This document shows, piece after piece, positions 1-5,740 of a stretch of 5,740 bases of DNA. Both the position numbers and the translations under genes were made by a program. The DNA comes from Oscillospiraceae bacterium. Its GTDB lineage: Bacteria > Bacillota_A > Clostridia > Oscillospirales > Ruminococcaceae. The notes beneath the pieces are model-generated. The model was not told where the DNA came from, did no database searches, and saw nothing but the letters and a program-made list of their open reading frames with translations. Location: positions 1 through 5,740 of the forward strand of contig JAFWUX010000201.1 in the NCBI GenBank assembly GCA_017523995.1, read 5' to 3'. How positions within the stretch are numbered: position 1 is the first letter of the stretch; the number at the start of each line of letters is the position of its first letter.

Positions 1-814
1 AAATTTTTCGTGAGCCGAGGCGCGTCCGCTGTTCCGCCGCTTTCAAAGCGGCTGATGTCAATAAGCATTGACGTTGACCAAAATTTTTTTCGCGGCGATG
101 TTTGAACATACAGTTGCCTTCTCTGCCGCTGCCTTTTTTCACCTCGACCGCTTTTTCTGCGGCGAGAAAATCGTTCGGTCTGAGGCGGCATACATACTGA
201 TGCGCTCTGCCGCCCTTGTTCGAAGCGATGAGATACGCCTGCCCGTCGTCATCGACAAACACTGTCTGATCGCCGGTGCCCTGCTTCTGCACGCCCTCGA
301 TCTGATCCTGCACATTCTTCACTTCAAAATTTCCGGTCGGGGTATCGCACTGTGCAAACAGTACACTCTCGTTATACTGCGTAACAAGCACATATTTTTT
401 TGATTTCGGGCAATATGCAACGCCCATTCTGCCGAGCCAGTAGGCAAAGCCGAAGCCCTTGGATTTCGGTGTCAGGACATCATTTTCAAATTTCCAGTTC
501 ACAAGATCCTTCGATGAATAGCAGGTGATTGACTTGAACCCGGTATCATCATTTTTGCCGGTCGGATTCTTTGCGTAGGTCTCCGCACCGGAATAGTGTA
601 CACCGTACCAGTAATAGGTATCGCCGAATTTGAAAATGCCGCCGCCCTGTGAATAAATGAAATTGCCGGAAGTATCCTTCCAGAAGCAGTCATTTGTGAT
701 CGTCTGCGACACAGCATTTGCGGTCATAGTCTGCTGCGGGATATGGATTCCGGCAGTGAACAGCAGCCCCGCAGCAGAAAGCACTGCCGCTGTTTTTTTC
801 CATCGTATTTTCAT
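1..814 (-). CDS. Secreted GH43-fold glycosyl hydrolase, exo-beta-1,3-galactanase-like; 3' end cut off and aberrant
   Basis: Translation from ATG at 814-812 gives 271 codons, open to the window edge. AGGGGG at 824-819 lies 4 nt upstream of the ATG. Residues 1-34 form a signal peptide: basic MKIRWKK, hydrophobic core, ANA cleavage before V35, so the protein is probably exported. The mature part shows a five-bladed-propeller GH43 pattern: QGGGIFKFGDTYYWYG (56-71), CYSSKDLVNWKF (98-109), GTGDQTVFVDDDGQAYLIAS (179-198) and GREGNCMFKH (230-239). By family pattern D182 is the pKa-modulating Asp and E232 the general acid. Where most GH43 enzymes have the base Asp (HDP), this one has GGG, as in the GH43_24-type galactanases, so an exo-beta-1,3-galactanase or related role on arabinogalactan is my best guess. 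Family resemblance ends at H239 (about position 98). The last ~32 codons do not look like GH43, so the gene is disrupted or the sequence is chimeric there. It has its own promoter and shares an upstream element with the next hydrolase gene. Confidence 0.8.
   Translation of the reverse strand, partial: MKIRWKKTAAVLSAAGLLFTAGIHIPQQTMTANAVSQTITNDCFWKDTSGNFIYSQGGGIFKFGDTYYWYGVHYSGAETYAKNPTGKNDDTGFKSITCYSSKDLVNWKFENDVLTPKSKGFGFAYWLGRMGVAYCPKSKKYVLVTQYNESVLFAQCDTPTGNFEVKNVQDQIEGVQKQGTGDQTVFVDDDGQAYLIASNKGGRAHQYVCRLRPNDFLAAEKAVEVKKGSGREGNCMFKHRREKNFGQRQCLLTSAALKAAEQRTRLGSRKI
36..72. repeat. Two adjacent tight palindromes in the non-homologous segment at the window edge
   Basis: GCCGCTTTCAAAGCGGC (36-52) is a perfect 8-bp inverted repeat around a single central base. 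GTCAATAAGCATTGAC (57-72) is a perfect 6-bp inverted repeat around a 4-base loop. Both sit in the ~97 bases where GH43 homology is lost. The stretch is also bracketed by similar motifs, AAATTTTTCG at 1-10 and AAATTTTTTTCG at 82-93. This could be the edge of a REP-like or miniature mobile repeat, or a terminator-like hairpin at an assembly junction. I do not recognise a named family. Confidence 0.45.
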
Positions 815-941
815 ATTTCCCCCTGTAATCTGTTTTTGCATATCCCACTGGACGCGATTGGAGCAGGAAGGGGTCTGCATCCGTCCGGATCCGGCAGATA
901 TGCTTGTTGCCTTGGTTTCTTGCGCAGAAACCTCTGATTCT

Positions 942-970
942 ATTGTAACAATTCTCCATACTGATTGCAA
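942..970 (-). promoter_or_regulatory. Sigma-A promoter of the galactanase-like GH43 gene
   Basis: On the minus strand, a -35 TTGCAA (970-965) and a -10 TACAAT (947-942) are separated by exactly 17 bases. Transcription would start near 935, giving a leader of about 120 nt before the ATG at 814. The -35 overlaps the end of the 20-bp shared core (968-987), as in the promoter of the large GH43 gene. Confidence 0.75.
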
Positions 971-1000
971 TCACATATTCTCTCATTCGCATGACTTTTT
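965..1000 (-). promoter_or_regulatory. Shared upstream regulatory element, copy B
   Basis: The 20 bases at 968-987 (plus strand CAATCACATATTCTCTCATT) are identical to 4958-4977. After a 3-base divergent gap, ATGACTTTTT (991-1000) matches ATGATTTTTT (4981-4990) at the same spacing. The element overlaps the -35 of the downstream gene and extends upstream of it, the usual place for an activator site. It lies between the terminator of the large gene and the promoter of the galactanase-like gene. The binding protein is not known from sequence; the divergently encoded sensor at 5071 is the obvious candidate. Confidence 0.75.
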
Positions 1001-1004
1001 CTTC

Positions 1005-1046
1005 CGAAAACAGCAGCAGCGATACACAAAGGCTGTGTACCGCTGC
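1005..1046 (-). terminator. Intrinsic terminator of the large GH43 gene
   Basis: Read on the minus strand, GCAGCGGTACACA (1046-1034) pairs with TGTGTATCGCTGC (1028-1016) to form a 13-bp stem with one G-U pair and a 5-base loop. It begins 12 nt after the TAA stop at 1060-1058. The trailing T tract is short and interrupted (TGCTGTTTTC), so efficiency is uncertain. The plus-strand side is followed by CGAAAAAG, so there is no good U tract in that direction. Confidence 0.75.
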
Positions 1047-1057
1047 CGAAAAAGTAT

Positions 1058-4000
1058 TTAAGATTTCTCGCTGATCTTGAATGTGCAGGCAGCCGCATCG
1101 CTGCCGTCAGTCAGCGTCAGTGCGCCGTTTGCCGCAGCGGTGAGGTATCTGCCGGGATTGGATACGCTTTCAAAGGAAACCTGTTTGCGGTCAGAAAGGC
1201 CGGTCACAGTGCGGAATGTCGCACTCTTTAAGTCGTTCTGCTGAATCGAGGTCTGCTGAGAAAGCACCGCGCCGCTGCCGTTTGCATTGACAGTGACATA
1301 AAGACCTGTCTTGTTCTCAGATTCTATCGAAACATAGGTCTGGTTCTCCACGTCGCACAGGCCGGGAACGATAACCCATTCGGTATCATGCGCGGTCAGA
1401 TTCTGCATTCCGAAGCCGAGTCCGACATTTGTGTACGGATACGCATTGTCATTGATCGAATTGGTGAATGCCGCATGACCGAGCAGCGCACCGTTCTGAT
1501 TGCTGATCGTTGAAACTGTACCGCCGATGCCTGCTGTGGTCTCCTCCATTTTCAGAATCTTTCCGCTGCTGTCGAAATGTACCTCACAGATATTCGGGCT
1601 TCTGCGATAACCGTTGCCCTCAGGCAGCGCGCCGTTGTGATAGATCATGTAGGTCTTGCCCTTGAAATCAAAGATGCTGCTGTGATTGGTATTTGAGGTC
1701 GCATTGCATTCAAAGATCACATCGCCGAATTTCCAGTCGCCCTTGAGCAGATCGGTGCAGGTGGAATATGCCATCTGCTCGCGCCAGCGGTATGCATAGA
1801 TCAGATAATAGTCGCCGTAATAGGTGCCGTCAGCATTCTGCCGGCGATAGAGCCACGGGGCTTCGGTATACATATTCATGCCCTTGCCGCGGTAGAAGAC
1901 ATCGCCGTTTGTGCCTTCGCCGCCGAAGGTGATTCTGCCGTCACCGTTGAGATCGCGGACGCTCACCATATCGTCATTGAGCTCGCAGATATAATATCTG
2001 TTGTTGCCCCATGCAAGATAGCGGTGCTCCTGACCGTCCTTGCCTTTCTCCACCCAGACGGTCGGGTCGATGTCGTCCCAGTTGCTTGCCTGATCGTTTG
2101 TCAGCGTGCCAGCAACGACCGGATGCCCGATATCACGGAACGGGCCTTTCGGGGAATCTGCGACCGCAACGCCGATGGACTGCTTGCCCTGTGCGGTTCT
2201 GTCCCATGAGCAGAAATAGAGATAATATTTGTTATTGTGCTTGACGACCTGACTTGCCCATGCACTTTTTGCATCGCCCCATGAAACATCGCGCATATTC
2301 ATCACGACACCCTCATAGTTCCAGTGAATCAGGTCTTTCGTGGAATAGCAGAGATATTCCGGGATATTGTAGATTGCCTGGCTGACTTCTGCATTCGTCG
2401 AAATATCATGTCCGGTGTAAGCATAGACCGTGTCGCCGTCCACAAATGCAGCCGGGTCACCGCCGTAGTTATAGCTTCCGTTTGTTGTGTTGATGCCGCC
2501 CGCAAAGGGGTTGTTGTACCGGCTGACACTGAGCTGAACCGGCTGCGGCGGGCCGGATTGCTCCGGTCCGCTCAGCAGCAGTCTTTTCAGAATTGTCAGA
2601 TCGTTTGCGTTGATTTTTCCGTCACGGTTCATGTCCGCGATCTTGCCCTGCTCCGGCGTCAGTGTGCCGGTTGTCAGCAGATAATCGCGCATCATAACAA
2701 GATCGGTCTTGTCACAGATGCCGTCTGCATTGATGTCGCCGGTCACAGTCAATACCTGCTTTTCTGTGACTGCAACTGCGTAATTGACACAGCCCGACTG
2801 ATTGATCTCGCCGAGCGTGACGGTCTGACCTGCGGTGAAATCCTTTTTCCAGAGCTGGTAGGTCACCTGCGGATCGCCGTCATCGGTGAGGGTATCGGCA
2901 GTTCTTGTCCAGCCGGAGAGCCATGCAGGAACATCGGTGATTCTGGTATCGAGCGCGACAAAAGCAGAAATATCTGCGCCTGCCTTGAAAGATGCCTGAT
3001 CGCCTGCATATTTCTTGGAATCGCACGCGGTCTGAATCCACTCTGCGCCGTTCAGTGCCTTCGATACGCTTGTGAACTTGAATTCTCTGTCGCCGAACAC
3101 AGCGCTGCCCGCCTGCTTGCCGGCAGTCACAACGGACCAGTTCCGCGCATTGGTCTTGTCGTTGACGGTCAGGGATTTGATGTACTTGCCGTCTGCATAG
3201 GTGATCGGCTGTACGGAGCGTTCGTTGCCCGACCATTCCCTGGTCTGTGCGCCCCAGATTGTCTGGTTGTTGTTGCCGACCGCTGTGAACACCATGACGC
3301 GCTTGCCCGTGCTCTCGTCATACTCCGCTGCGAAATAGCCCTGATAGGTCGTGTTGTTGATCTTCAGCGTTGCCGCAGAGGATTCCGCCGCCTGCTGCCA
3401 TGTGCCGCTGACTGCACCGGAGATCGTGCCGTTTGCATTCAGCGTGATATTCTGGTAGTTGATGATCGTGCCGTTTGTCGCATTGCCGTGGTTAATGTAC
3501 TCATATGTGCCGACAATGTCGCTTGTCTCATAGCCGGACTCCGACCACGGATTGATGCAGTATTCAAACGGAATGACGACCGGCCAGCCTGCCTCATTAA
3601 ACTTCATCGAGTGGACGCGGACTTCGTGGCCTTCGCCGCCGTCATCGAATCTTGCGTGATAGAGCAGATACCACTCGCCGTCATCGTCGCGCAGCACGGA
3701 GTTGTGACCGCACGCCATGTATGCGCGGTTAATGGTGCTGAATTTGTAGTTGCCCATGACCTTGAGACCGATGCTGTCGAGATTTGTGCCGGCATCAAGC
3801 ACCATGTTTCTGCCTGCCGCATCGACGAACGGCCCCAGCGGAGACTTTGACCGTCCGACGCGCATATTATAGCCGCCGGTCGAGGTCAGACCGCCGTAGG
3901 TCACCCAGAGATAATAGTAGCCGGTGTCCTTGTTGTATTCGATAAACGGGCCTTCGCCGGATTTTCCCCAGCCGCCGGAGATCTTCGTGCCGAAGTAGCT

Positions 4001-4822
4001 GTCAACCATTCGGCCGTCAGCGGTCTTTCCGTTTTTCGGATGGATGCATTTGCCCGTCTTTTTGTCGATTTCCAGTGTGAAAATGCCGCCCGACCACGAG
4101 CCGTAGCACATATACATTCTGCCGTCGGTATCGGTGTAGATCGTCGGGTCGATCGCGTTCGGATACTGCTGATTGTTAAAATCGCCGTTTCCGCTGAACC
4201 AAGCATTGTTGTGCGAGACCTGACCGCTCTGCTCAAGAGCCGGAATATTGGTCGAGGTGTATTTGCGGTTGACGCGCTTGGTGTTGCTCGTCGCCCAGGA
4301 ATCATTGCTTGTGAATCCGGAATAGATCAGCGTATCGACAAAGGTATACGGTCCCGTGATCTTTTTGGATGCCGCAAATGCGATGACCGAGCGCTTGTAG
4401 GTCGAAGAGGTGCAGAAGTACATCAGATACGCGCCTTTTGAGCCGTCCGAATTGACGAAATCCGCATCCCAGAACACATCCGGCGCCCAGACTGCAAAGC
4501 CGCCTGCACAGTCTTCGAGATCCTCGCCCGCCCATGCAAATGCTTTTTGCAGATTCTGCGAGAGATTGCCGAATTCCACATTGTTTGTCCGCGCATAGCC
4601 GTTGGAAAAACGTGTCCAGTCGCGGAGGTTGGTTGAGCGTGCGGCTTCGATGTGCGAGCCGAACACATAGTAGGTATTGCCGTCCTTCACGACAGAAGGA
4701 TCATGCACGGAGACGCGCGTTCCTGCTGCTGCCGAGGCTTCCCTTGCAGGAAGATTTGCGTGCAGACCCGTCAGTGCGAGCGCGCCTGCCAGCAGGAATG
4801 AAAGCAGTTTTTTCTGTTTCAT
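1058..4822 (-). CDS. Secreted tandem GH43 arabinan-degrading enzyme with internal dockerin and CBM42-like domain
   Basis: 1254 residues. A signal peptide (1-31, MKQKKLL, hydrophobic core, ASA cleavage) sends it out of the cell. GH43 module 1 (about 35-425) resembles endo-alpha-1,5-L-arabinanases of the Bacillus Abn2 type: base D41 in VHDPSV, pKa Asp D225 in AIDPTIY, acid E290 in GEGPFIEY, and metal-site H373 in CGHNSV. HARFDDGGEGHEVRVH (389-404) is characteristic of that group. Residues 434-530 fit the small beta-barrel that follows such arabinanases. Residues 541-688 form a beta-rich module I cannot name. A dockerin follows (693-752), then a Pro/Gly linker. GH43 module 2 (about 766-1100) has D789 (GGDPAAF), D919 (DIDPTVW) and E987 (YTEAPW), suggesting an arabinofuranosidase or xylosidase type. 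Residues 1155-1251, with ATFRTVTGL and VSFESVSNPGRYL, match the AbfB/CBM42 arabinofuranose-binding fold. All catalytic residues look intact. It probably cuts arabinan or arabinoxylan side chains while docked on a cellulosome. It ends in its own terminator. Confidence 0.9.
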   Translation of the reverse strand: MKQKKLLSFLLAGALALTGLHANLPAREASAAAGTRVSVHDPSVVKDGNTYYVFGSHIEAARSTNLRDWTRFSNGYARTNNVEFGNLSQNLQKAFAWAGEDLEDCAGGFAVWAPDVFWDADFVNSDGSKGAYLMYFCTSSTYKRSVIAFAASKKITGPYTFVDTLIYSGFTSNDSWATSNTKRVNRKYTSTNIPALEQSGQVSHNNAWFSGNGDFNNQQYPNAIDPTIYTDTDGRMYMCYGSWSGGIFTLEIDKKTGKCIHPKNGKTADGRMVDSYFGTKISGGWGKSGEGPFIEYNKDTGYYYLWVTYGGLTSTGGYNMRVGRSKSPLGPFVDAAGRNMVLDAGTNLDSIGLKVMGNYKFSTINRAYMACGHNSVLRDDDGEWYLLYHARFDDGGEGHEVRVHSMKFNEAGWPVVIPFEYCINPWSESGYETSDIVGTYEYINHGNATNGTIINYQNITLNANGTISGAVSGTWQQAAESSAATLKINNTTYQGYFAAEYDESTGKRVMVFTAVGNNNQTIWGAQTREWSGNERSVQPITYADGKYIKSLTVNDKTNARNWSVVTAGKQAGSAVFGDREFKFTSVSKALNGAEWIQTACDSKKYAGDQASFKAGADISAFVALDTRITDVPAWLSGWTRTADTLTDDGDPQVTYQLWKKDFTAGQTVTLGEINQSGCVNYAVAVTEKQVLTVTGDINADGICDKTDLVMMRDYLLTTGTLTPEQGKIADMNRDGKINANDLTILKRLLLSGPEQSGPPQPVQLSVSRYNNPFAGGINTTNGSYNYGGDPAAFVDGDTVYAYTGHDISTNAEVSQAIYNIPEYLCYSTKDLIHWNYEGVVMNMRDVSWGDAKSAWASQVVKHNNKYYLYFCSWDRTAQGKQSIGVAVADSPKGPFRDIGHPVVAGTLTNDQASNWDDIDPTVWVEKGKDGQEHRYLAWGNNRYYICELNDDMVSVRDLNGDGRITFGGEGTNGDVFYRGKGMNMYTEAPWLYRRQNADGTYYGDYYLIYAYRWREQMAYSTCTDLLKGDWKFGDVIFECNATSNTNHSSIFDFKGKTYMIYHNGALPEGNGYRRSPNICEVHFDSSGKILKMEETTAGIGGTVSTISNQNGALLGHAAFTNSINDNAYPYTNVGLGFGMQNLTAHDTEWVIVPGLCDVENQTYVSIESENKTGLYVTVNANGSGAVLSQQTSIQQNDLKSATFRTVTGLSDRKQVSFESVSNPGRYLTAAANGALTLTDGSDAAACTFKISEKS
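2567..2746 (-). other. Type-I dockerin domain, internal, residues 693-752
   Basis: Two calcium-loop repeats are visible: DINADGICDKTDL (696-708) and DMNRDGKINANDL (729-741), each with Asp/Asn at loop positions 1, 3, 5, 9 and 12 and followed by a Leu-rich helix (VMMRDYLL, TILKRLLL). Such domains bind cohesins on scaffoldin proteins and so attach the enzyme to a cellulosome. The residues usually read as cohesin-specificity positions (10 and 11) are KT in the first repeat and AN in the second, so the two faces are not equivalent. The domain lies between two catalytic modules instead of at a terminus. A linker, SGPEQSGPPQPVQ, follows it. Confidence 0.93.
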
Positions 4823-4829
4823 TTCAATT

Positions 4830-4834
4830 CCCCC
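4830..4834 (-). promoter_or_regulatory. Ribosome binding site that sets the start of the large GH43 gene
   Basis: GGGGG on the minus strand, in context ATGGGGGAATT, lies 7 nt upstream of the ATG at 4822. The frame can be extended to another ATG at 4852, but that adds MENLINGGIE in front of a normal signal peptide, reads through this Shine-Dalgarno sequence, and has no G-rich motif of its own. The 4822 start is therefore preferred. Confidence 0.8.
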
Positions 4835-4851
4835 ATTTATCAGATTTTCCA

Positions 4852-4916
4852 CAAACCGGTGCCGCGCAGCCGCCGATTGTCGAAGGGGAGACAGTCAGCA
4901 TATGCATCAAACCGGT
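4852..4916. repeat. Direct repeat CAAACCGGT in the leader of the large GH43 gene
   Basis: CAAACCGGT occurs at 4852-4860 and again at 4908-4916, 56 bp apart in the same orientation. Both copies contain the palindrome ACCGGT and lie between the promoter and the start codon. They could be paired operator half-sites for a second regulator, or chance. Confidence 0.3.
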
Positions 4917-4931
4917 CTATTTCATGATTTC

Positions 4932-4960
4932 ATTATAACGGATAGAAAACAGAATCACAA
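4932..4960 (-). promoter_or_regulatory. Sigma-A promoter of the large GH43 gene
   Basis: On the minus strand a perfect -10 TATAAT (4937-4932) is preceded by TTGTGA (4960-4955) with a 17-base spacer. Transcription would start near 4925 and give a leader of about 100 nt. The -35 is imperfect, consistent with activator dependence, and it overlaps the shared 20-bp core exactly as in the promoter at 942-970. Confidence 0.82.
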
Positions 4961-4990
4961 TCACATATTCTCTCATTTCAATGATTTTTT
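4955..4990. promoter_or_regulatory. Shared upstream regulatory element, copy A, between divergent promoters
   Basis: This carries the identical 20-bp core (4958-4977) plus ATGATTTTTT (4981-4990), matching copy B at 965-1000 with the same internal spacing. On one side it runs into the -35 of the large GH43 gene (4955-4960). On the other side the -35 of the sensor gene starts at 4999. A protein bound here could activate the hydrolase and affect transcription of the sensor gene at once, the usual geometry of a divergently transcribed local regulator. Confidence 0.75.
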
Positions 4991-4998
4991 CTGTCCGA

Positions 4999-5027
4999 TT
5001 GACAATCCCTGTAATCTATGATATACT
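4999..5027 (+). promoter_or_regulatory. Sigma-A promoter of the sugar-sensor gene
   Basis: A consensus -35 TTGACA (4999-5004) and -10 TATACT (5022-5027) are separated by 17 bases. The expected start near 5034 leaves a leader of about 37 nt before the ATG at 5071. The consensus -35 suggests substantial basal expression, unlike the weaker -35 boxes of the two hydrolase genes. Confidence 0.85.
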
Positions 5028-5059
5028 AAAACCAAAAACATAGAAATCAATTTACAGGG
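5007..5059. repeat. Inverted repeat CCCTGTAA / TTACAGGG around the sensor promoter
   Basis: CCCTGTAA (5007-5014) lies in the spacer between -35 and -10, and its exact inverse TTACAGGG (5052-5059) lies in the leader over the Shine-Dalgarno sequence. The arms are 45 bp apart, and the upstream arm precedes the predicted transcription start, so an RNA hairpin is unlikely. They could be operator half-sites. The second arm is also explained partly by the ribosome binding site. Confidence 0.3.
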
Positions 5060-5070
5060 GGAAAAGGAAT

Positions 5071-5740
5071 ATGGACAGCATTGGGAAAATCGGCGTGCTG
5101 CTGCCGGAGATCGTGGATCCGCTGGATTATGACCTGCTGCGCGGCATCCATACGGAGGCTGCTGCGCTGGGATATGATGTGATTGTCTATTGCAGCATTT
5201 ACAATTCGCAGGTAGAGCTCCAGCAGGATGCCTATACGCACGGACTGGAAAACATCTACACGCTGCTGATACATCATCGGCTGGACGGCGTGATCTTCGC
5301 CGCAGACCGCTTTCACAATCAGGAACTGAATCTAAAAATACAGGAGATGCTCACACAGCGCGGTATTCCGTGCCTTGTTCTCGGTGAGGAGCGTCCGCCG
5401 CTGCAACCGATCTATCCGCGGCAGAAGGATGCGATGTACCGCATGACCAGGCATCTGATTGATGCACACGGCTGCAAAAAGATCTACTGCATCACCGGCT
5501 TTCCGGACAATCGCTCTTCTGAAGAGCGTACTGCCGGATATAAGCAGGCAATGCAGGAAGCCGGACTGCCGTTTACTGATCAGGATATTTTCTTCGGCCA
5601 TTTCTGGCGTGAGGTTCCGCAGCAGATCGGCAGACAGATCGCAGAGGGCAGTCTCCCGATGCCGGACGGCATCGTCTGCGCAAGTGACGGTATGGCGGCA
5701 GCGCTCTGTGAAGCGCTGCAAGAAAACGGCATCTCCGTGC
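5071..5740 (+). CDS. Sugar-sensing regulator with LacI/GalR-type periplasmic-binding domain, lacking an N-terminal HTH; 3' end beyond window
   Basis: 223 codons are visible and the frame is open at the right edge. AGGGGG (5056-5061) precedes the ATG at 5071. The protein starts directly with a periplasmic-binding-protein-like sensor fold: KIGVLLPEIVDPLDYDLLRG (6-25), LDGVIFAADRF (71-81), IPCLVLGEE (99-107), GCKKIYCITGFPDNRSSEER (134-153) with TAGYKQAMQEAGL after it, and PDGIVCASDGMAAALCEAL (198-216). These match the sugar-binding half of LacI/GalR repressors. There is no helix-turn-helix in front, and an in-frame TAG at 5041-5043 rules out an N-terminal extension. There is no signal peptide, so it acts in the cytoplasm. 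By analogy with E. coli XylR it may carry a C-terminal AraC-type DNA-binding domain beyond the window; a C-terminal GGDEF or other output domain is an alternative. Its divergent placement next to the shared element suggests it controls the hydrolase genes. The ligand is unknown; an arabinose- or galactose-containing sugar is plausible. Confidence 0.85.
   Translation, partial: MDSIGKIGVLLPEIVDPLDYDLLRGIHTEAAALGYDVIVYCSIYNSQVELQQDAYTHGLENIYTLLIHHRLDGVIFAADRFHNQELNLKIQEMLTQRGIPCLVLGEERPPLQPIYPRQKDAMYRMTRHLIDAHGCKKIYCITGFPDNRSSEERTAGYKQAMQEAGLPFTDQDIFFGHFWREVPQQIGRQIAEGSLPMPDGIVCASDGMAAALCEALQENGISV

Follow-up and report, generated by a model that had tools for sequence, protein, structure and literature searches.

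The E. coli regulator XylR (PDB 4fe4/4fe7) joins a LacI/GalR-like sensor to a C-terminal AraC-type domain with two helix-turn-helix (HTH) motifs and uses tandem half-sites by the -35 box; direct-repeat sites just upstream of the -35 are the placement expected for AraC-type activators. In Bacillus subtilis, rhamnogalacturonan (RG) lyase and RG esterase genes are controlled by the AraC-family protein YesS, which to our knowledge has no LacI-like sensor domain. For XylS, MekR and AraC, direct half-sites arranged in tandem by the -35 are described in PMC4514859, in which the spacing as written for the XylS and MekR sites sums to a period of 21 bp. At the RNA level, excerpts on IsrR (PMC9410917) and RNAIII (PMC2837412) describe Firmicutes small RNAs whose unpaired C-rich regions act on Shine-Dalgarno (SD) sequences. 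Little literature was found on the control of cellulosomal pectin enzymes in Ruminococcus, and the titles and abstract openings listed describe neither this regulator nor the leader or regulon considered here.

Here, we analyzed a stretch of 5,740 nucleotides from an Oscillospiraceae bacterium (contig JAFWUX010000201.1, positions 1 to 5,740, forward strand; called the window). Its minus strand carries a secreted GH43 enzyme (2..814, truncated at the window start), whose relative in L002 resembles exo-beta-1,3-galactanases, and a large secreted protein (1061..4822; called GH43-GH43) composed of an endo-arabinanase-like GH43 part, GH43_C, a dockerin, a second GH43 part and AbfB. The first GH43 part of the large protein matches solved arabinanases and the second matches arabinofuranosidase/xylosidase-type enzymes. 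On the plus strand a regulator gene with a LacI-like periplasmic-binding-type sensor domain begins (5071..5740, cut by the window end). Two minus-strand promoters fire into the GH43 genes, which start at 814 and 4822: TTGCAA-17-TACAAT at 942..970 (-35 at 965-970, -10 at 942-947) and TTGTGA-17-TATAAT at 4932..4960 (-35 at 4955-4960, -10 at 4932-4937), both assigned from the sequence and from the same geometry in relatives. The divergent promoter of the regulator gene, TTGACA-17-TATACT on the plus strand (4999..5027), was assigned from the sequence; it begins 6 bp from the second copy of the element described below, a gap that is also visible in the related loci L001-L004 and L006.

The first-pass annotation had pointed to a 20-mer shared by the upstream regions of the two GH43 genes. 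The 20-mer CAATCACATATTCTCTCATT is indeed present in exact copies at 968-987 and 4958-4977, both on the plus strand (n=2); no third copy with up to three mismatches was found in the window and none occurred in 200 dinucleotide shuffles of it. Also as annotated, ATGA(C/T)TTTTT lies three bases past each copy, and position and register relative to the -35 are the same in both. The reported overlap with the -35 is smaller than the wording implied: both copies touch the -35 of a GH43 promoter with a 17-bp spacer, but only by 3 bp (TTG), so that the element lies mainly upstream of the -35. The unit itself is longer than 20 bp, as the exact pair widens in a repeat search to 35 bp at 89%. These putative operator copies, read on the minus strand, are located at 968..1002 upstream of the GH43 gene (half-sites 970-981 and 991-1002, 21 bp apart) and at 4958..4992 upstream of the GH43-GH43 gene (half-sites 4960-4971 and 4981-4992), the second being flanked by two divergent promoters.

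Fifteen sites from the window and five relatives were aligned without gaps over 35 columns, 19 of which are invariant; the sites are largely orthologous and therefore not independent. Identity falls outside the element, and the 17-bp promoter spacers beside the aligned sites have diverged. Among offsets of 4-29, a shift of 21 bp gave the best direct repeat (column-permutation P = 0.028 over all offsets, P < 1/5000 at a fixed 21 bp), while an inverted-repeat operator was rejected as not better than chance (P = 0.088). The half-sites AGAAAAnGTCAT and AGAATATGTGAT follow the consensus AGAAnAnGTSAT, and the full site reads AGAAnAnGTSAT-N9-AGAAnAnGTSATTG. By comparison, the element appears to be an operator that abuts the -35 and consists of a half-site repeated directly with a period of about 21 bp, a pattern that is weaker at the paralogue loci considered below.

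The part of the regulator encoded in the window matches PF00532 from residue 6 on and PF13377, and Pfam revealed no HTH family ahead of the LacI-like domain, i.e. the protein has a LacI/GalR-like ligand domain without the N-terminal LacI HTH. The window ends before the C-terminal part, which was read in relatives: full-length relatives of 733-738 aa consist of the LacI-like sensor, a weak GGDEF-like stretch (PF00990 at E 0.0026 in a 734-aa relative, which misses the curated threshold) and, at the C-terminus, an AraC-type HTH, which in the full-length L002 relative is matched by PF12833 (E 2e-18, residues 653-731) and PF00165 (E 3.4e-16). The match to E. coli XylR is confined to the HTH part. 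In L006 the regulator frame (4154-6046, 630 aa) deviates from its relatives near start and end and is possibly altered or misassembled. LacI-like/AraC regulators about 30% identical to the 5071 type occur in 27 of 30 genomes of the genus, as members of a large paralogous family.

Searching GTDB genomes with the 5071 gene yielded eight related loci. In the five close ones (L001-L004 and L006; draft assemblies of Ruminococcus or Oscillospiraceae, one of them obtained from sheep omasum) the regulator is 92, 91, 85, 76 and 68% identical in the best segment, and in all five, as in the window, the element stands between the regulator and the divergent promoter. Further copies in these loci are found upstream of genes for PL11 rhamnogalacturonan lyase, GDSL esterase and GH43 enzymes; L005, with a 55% identical regulator, has no site at its locus. 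Allowing up to three mismatches, the 20-mer matched 24 places in six genomes versus one for the reversed-pattern control. A -10 with at most one mismatch follows at 20-21 nt in 21 of the 24 places, and the three places without it (L014, L018 and L019) each carry three mismatches. In G002 (3.3 Mb) all six matches lie on the cluster contig and all at promoters. By eye, a phage-integrase-like open frame is seen downstream of PL11 in L002 (16055-16585).

We also searched 30 genomes of the genus with a sequence-only profile of 35 positions and scored 150 preselected candidates per genome, so that the counts are lower bounds. The profile gave at least 32 matches at E <= 0.05, of which at least 29 at E <= 0.013. 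A -10 with at most one mismatch was present at 20-21 nt in 28 of these 29, the exception being a partial match in G015:C29 (E 0.002) that is not a promoter; the three weaker matches (E 0.013 to 0.05) are not promoters either. The 28 promoter sites, 13 of which had been used to train the profile, precede a pectin-type enzyme gene in 22 cases (9 of the 15 non-training sites): six GH43-GH43, two GH43, six PL11, six YXIM-type GDSL esterase, one GH30 and one GH127 gene. The remaining sites lie before a PL11 remnant (G026), a leucine-rich-repeat protein, a small-RNA candidate and, in three cases, no clear downstream gene. Gene identities were established by Pfam on at least one member of each kind and by resemblance, judged by eye, for the others; the GH30 member resembles endo-beta-1,6-galactanase. 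As judged from these assignments, the targets (PL11, GH127, esterase, arabinanase, beta-1,3- and beta-1,6-galactanase-like enzymes) constitute an RG-I side-chain set. A general cellulosome promoter element was ruled out because G002 has 125 dockerin matches and few element sites, with at least five element-driven enzyme genes matched by the profile. The interpretation of the 20-mer as a conserved regulator site is thus largely borne out by comparison, by the 24 places against one in the reversed control and by the near restriction to pectin-gene promoters. The proposed local regulon of two GH43 genes holds insofar as both share the element, but the predicted regulon extends beyond these two genes and beyond the locus.

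A second clade is made up of regulators about 50% identical to the 5071 type. In L079 and L080 such a paralogue is divergent to a GH43 gene, and the promoters keep ATTG, the 20 nt and the -10 with other letters upstream. Eight paralogue loci (L079-L086, 36.6 kb) were scanned for the promoter geometry together with a 21-bp repeat identical in at least 6 of 12 positions, which gave five matches compared to a background of 13 in 722 kb of G002; in the three cluster loci the same scan gave 13 in 40 kb, two of which are the regulator's own promoter. Repeat identity was 11/12 in L083, 8/12 in L082 and 6/12 in L079, L080 and L086, and no same-geometry promoter was detected by the scan in L081, L084 and L085. 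In L080 the matching repeat is found on the strand of the regulator, with just 5/12 at the GH43 promoter, and the promoter in L083 faces the paralogue gene itself. Because the matches are partial and accompanied by misses, these comparisons provide moderate, not strong, evidence that the operator sites change with the neighboring regulator. In five site-bearing genomes (G009, G023, G026, G030 and G031; assembly completeness not given) no regulator match above 70% identity was found. Inspection of G030:C177 (L099, about 1-300) by eye shows, next to the sites and the small RNA, just the beginning and the end of the regulator gene, suggestive of an internal deletion or an assembly error.

Taken together, the comparison of related genomes establishes the site and its geometry, shows that it is nearly confined to promoters of one gene set and places a regulator gene beside it; we infer that the 5071 protein binds the site, that this protein activates and does not repress, and which kind of ligand it senses. 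The element is most likely a class-II AraC-type operator read by the 5071 protein, and we consider it probable that this divergently encoded LacI/AraC hybrid is a sugar-sensing activator controlling an RG-I side-chain regulon. A regulator dimer would bind the two direct half-sites 21 bp apart; since the promoter-near half-site touches the -35, the C-terminal AraC domain could contact RNA polymerase as in class II, and a pectin side-chain sugar bound by the LacI-like domain would switch the regulator on.

Alternatively, a genuine site may be recognized by a different regulator, for example the 50% paralogue, either alone or together with the 5071 protein. This would account for the good sites in the five genomes without a close regulator, three of which (G009, G023 and G031) contain the paralogue; moreover, the second HTH is much alike in both clades, and the site in the small-RNA promoter, ATCGGTCATTG, resembles paralogue-adjacent sites in L083 and L101. 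We regard it as unlikely given that the element accompanies every regulator of 68-92% identity, that the half-site letters differ at the paralogue-divergent GH43 promoters of L079 and L080, and that G008, G010, G012 and G025 carry the paralogue without a site at E <= 0.05. Somewhat less probable still is that the 5071 protein binds but mainly represses, with the operator over the -35 and sugar as the releasing signal: poor -35 hexamers (TTGCAA, TTGTGA) beside good -10 boxes and a direct repeat just upstream of the -35 suit an AraC-type activator, even though contact with the -35 and a LacI-type sensor domain, frequent among repressors, would fit repression. A dispersed repeat or mobile element, which the exact identity of the two copies over 20 bases might suggest, can be practically dismissed, as G002 contains six copies in 3.3 Mb, in one cluster and all at promoters, with identity dropping outside the element, and as the 30-genome search placed 28 of 29 matches at promoters and 22 of these 28 before pectin-type genes. 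The sites are therefore not scattered; scattering would have spoken against the first-pass annotation.

Downstream of the predicted promoters, the mRNA leaders share features of their own. The GH43 leader (815..935, minus strand) contains a hairpin with the apical loop ACCCCUUC at 867-874 and a GGGGG SD at 819-823; the GH43-GH43 leader (4823..4925, minus strand) forms a long hairpin with the apical loop UCCCCUUC at 4882-4889, followed by GGGGG at 4830-4834. The starts of both leaders were set from the -10 boxes. The regulator mRNA carries a GGGGG SD as well (5057..5061, plus strand). GGGGG is present in 25 of 36 rows of regulon-gene starts. The 11 rows without it are the regulators of L003, L004 and L006, the L003 PL11 (the start used lies upstream, and GGGGGA precedes the next ATG), two rows for a single L017 gene, L030, L060, L070 and two L005 genes that also have no element. 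In G002 all five element-driven genes have GGGGG compared to 19 of 483 open reading frames and 2 of 24 dockerin genes (Fisher P = 1.9e-7, a value not obtained from unseen data because GGGGG was first noticed in the window and L002). Further genomes were examined for GGGGG later, and a second background, from other genomes and including a few regulon genes, amounted to 13 of 93.

The loop motif CCCCUUC is found in leaders of GH43, GH43-GH43 and esterase mRNAs, i.e. of genes from different families, and is absent from PL11 and GH30 leaders. When 16 leaders with a C-run were folded, it was located in the apical loop in 13, paired with GGGGG in two (L001, L147) and in an internal loop in one (L152). 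The arrangement CCCCTTC, 33-62 nt, GGGGG, ATG occurs at 22 places in eight genomes (two of which overlap and one precedes a 38-codon frame) versus two for the reversed and one for the scrambled-loop control. With GGAGG instead of GGGGG, 16 places were found in the eight genomes, and GGAGG is about five times more common before ATG than GGGGG in the G002 sample (382 vs 71). An operator site precedes one of these GGAGG places (G003:C61), which shows that the C-loop can also occur without GGGGG. Among 511 open frames of G002, eight have a CCCCTTC leader, and the three of these that combine it with GGGGG belong to the cluster without exception (P = 0.004); of the other five, two are of secreted type with GGAGG.

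In the 30 genomes of the genus the pattern occurs at 33 places versus seven for the reversed control. Outside the genus it was discarded as a marker: 93 of 247 family genomes match, but the reversed control is also common (pattern vs control 8 vs 11 in G104, 9 vs 6 in G060 and 15 vs 3 in G199). A stem of at least 4 bp around the loop in one fixed register is present in 15 of 23 distinct genus leaders versus 0 of 30 out-of-genus loci (P = 8e-8), where the register was chosen after the first leaders had been seen and some of the genus leaders are orthologous; letting the loop size vary gave 22 of 24 and 8 of 30. Nine of 11 new genus matches were examined, the other two being L079 and L080. Six of the nine precede secreted proteins and have stems of 4-11 bp (one of these duplicates a sequence already counted); the other three stems are shorter, with 2 bp before a lipoprotein-like gene and 3 and 2 bp at two matches that lack a real gene. 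In the GH43-GH43 leader, compensatory changes affect six pairs and occur in five distinct rows. A count of 98.3% paired covariation was set aside as biased because 15 of the 23 leaders had been picked for pairing in that register (14 by at least 4 bp, L004 by 3). Folding of the GH43 and GH43-GH43 leaders of the window gave modest z-scores (-1.59 and -1.38). Rfam 15 gave no match at E <= 1 in window regions 790-970 and 4790-4960, none at the gathering score in the window, L001 and L003, and in L002 12100-12600 only two matches, both below the gathering score. C-loop/GGGGG leaders are also seen outside the regulon, ahead of genes for secreted proteins in L226, L227 and L242 (DUF6055-type by Pfam or resemblance), L240 and L224 (dockerin-type) and L239 (GH26); in L226, L239, L240 and L242, promoters of the same geometry with other half-sites are found just upstream. 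We conclude that the C-loop/GGGGG leader is very likely a real, selected element.

A candidate small RNA consisting of a hairpin, a C-rich linker and a terminator is predicted on the minus strand, divergent from PL11, at L002 12358-12258, L001 2702-2606, L003 10933-10845 and G030:C177 296-210. It is 89-101 nt long in L001-L003, where it lies between the regulator and PL11, and takes the same place in G030, which is close to L003 and hardly independent. Its promoter shows the customary spacing to the -10 and carries an element variant, which was detected with profile R1 in L002 (E 1.2e-4) and L001 (E 0.042) and not detected in L003. By prediction, its own promoter, an unpaired C-run and an intrinsic terminator are all present in L001, L002, L003 and G030, downstream of the regulator. 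In 30 genomes a model of the RNA gave strong matches only in G001, G002 and G003, the training set, and in G030; other matches (E 0.001 to 0.4) were rejected, as 16 loci (L107-L122) revealed no element and some alignments resemble unrelated terminators. Predicted duplexes between the linker and the leaders rank at 7-41% of the background and do not single out regulon genes. The small RNA as sole cause of GGGGG is unsupported, GGGGG and C-loops being also present in G004, G006, G009, G023 and G031. RNAs with a similar hairpin, CU-rich stretch and terminator and no operator nearby are seen in G030:C63 (399-475) and G031:C364 (12329-12408), perhaps representing another small RNA.

These observations may be united in a regulon of two layers, which we put forward tentatively: the LacI/AraC hybrid on the 35-bp operator, leaders with loop-SD pairing, and the small RNA acting in trans. 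In the enzyme mRNAs, as we infer, the apical loop CCCCUUC would pair with the message's own GGGGG SD about 45 nt downstream and set translation. In some species the small RNA of about 100 nt, transcribed divergently from PL11 under the operator variant, would offer the C-run in trans to messages with GGGGG and no C-loop (PL11, GH30 and the regulator). It is also quite conceivable that the C-loop hairpin is a generic stabilizing or ribosome-standby structure, that GGGGG is incidental and that loop and SD remain unpaired. The unexceptional linker duplexes and the modest z-scores are in line with such a generic hairpin, as are the three of eight CCCCTTC leaders of G002 that carry GGGGG, with two of the other five being secreted-type genes with GGAGG; loop and SD show no covariation, because they hardly vary. 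It accounts less well for the 22 places of loop plus GGGGG against two and one in the controls, for only 16 places with the far more common GGAGG, and for the minimum-energy folds that pair the C-run with GGGGG in 2 of the 16 leaders.

In summary, the regulator probably turns on enzymes for pectin breakdown in Ruminococcus-type bacteria of gut and rumen; with its operator and an identified regulator gene, the regulon lends itself to direct testing. The leader hairpin ahead of an unusual ribosome-binding site is apparently undescribed, and the C-loop/GGGGG leader recurs on unrelated secreted-enzyme genes in the genus; the loop-SD pairing, if true, would be a new way to tune translation of secreted enzymes in fiber-degrading bacteria and a handle to find such genes. 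The RNA layer, the more novel part of the regulon, may be new. Small RNAs such as IsrR and RNAIII share with our case a C-run that is unpaired, lies within or beside a hairpin and is complementary to G-rich SD sequences, and our small-RNA candidate has a terminator; in contrast to those RNAs, the C-run here lies mainly in the leader of the same mRNA, paired in occurrence with GGGGG, and is predicted, with no Rfam match. Among transcriptional regulators, YesS resembles the 5071 type in the AraC-family control of RG genes and, by what we know of it, differs in the sensor domain. E. coli XylR is alike in combining a LacI/GalR-like sensor with an AraC-type HTH and in the tandem direct half-sites at the -35. 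Compared to XylR and the AraC/XylS family, the 5071 type is longer (734 aa), with a weak GGDEF-like stretch between its ends, has other half-site letters and targets secreted, dockerin-bearing pectin enzymes. The transcription part of this regulon is most likely a novel operator within the known AraC type.
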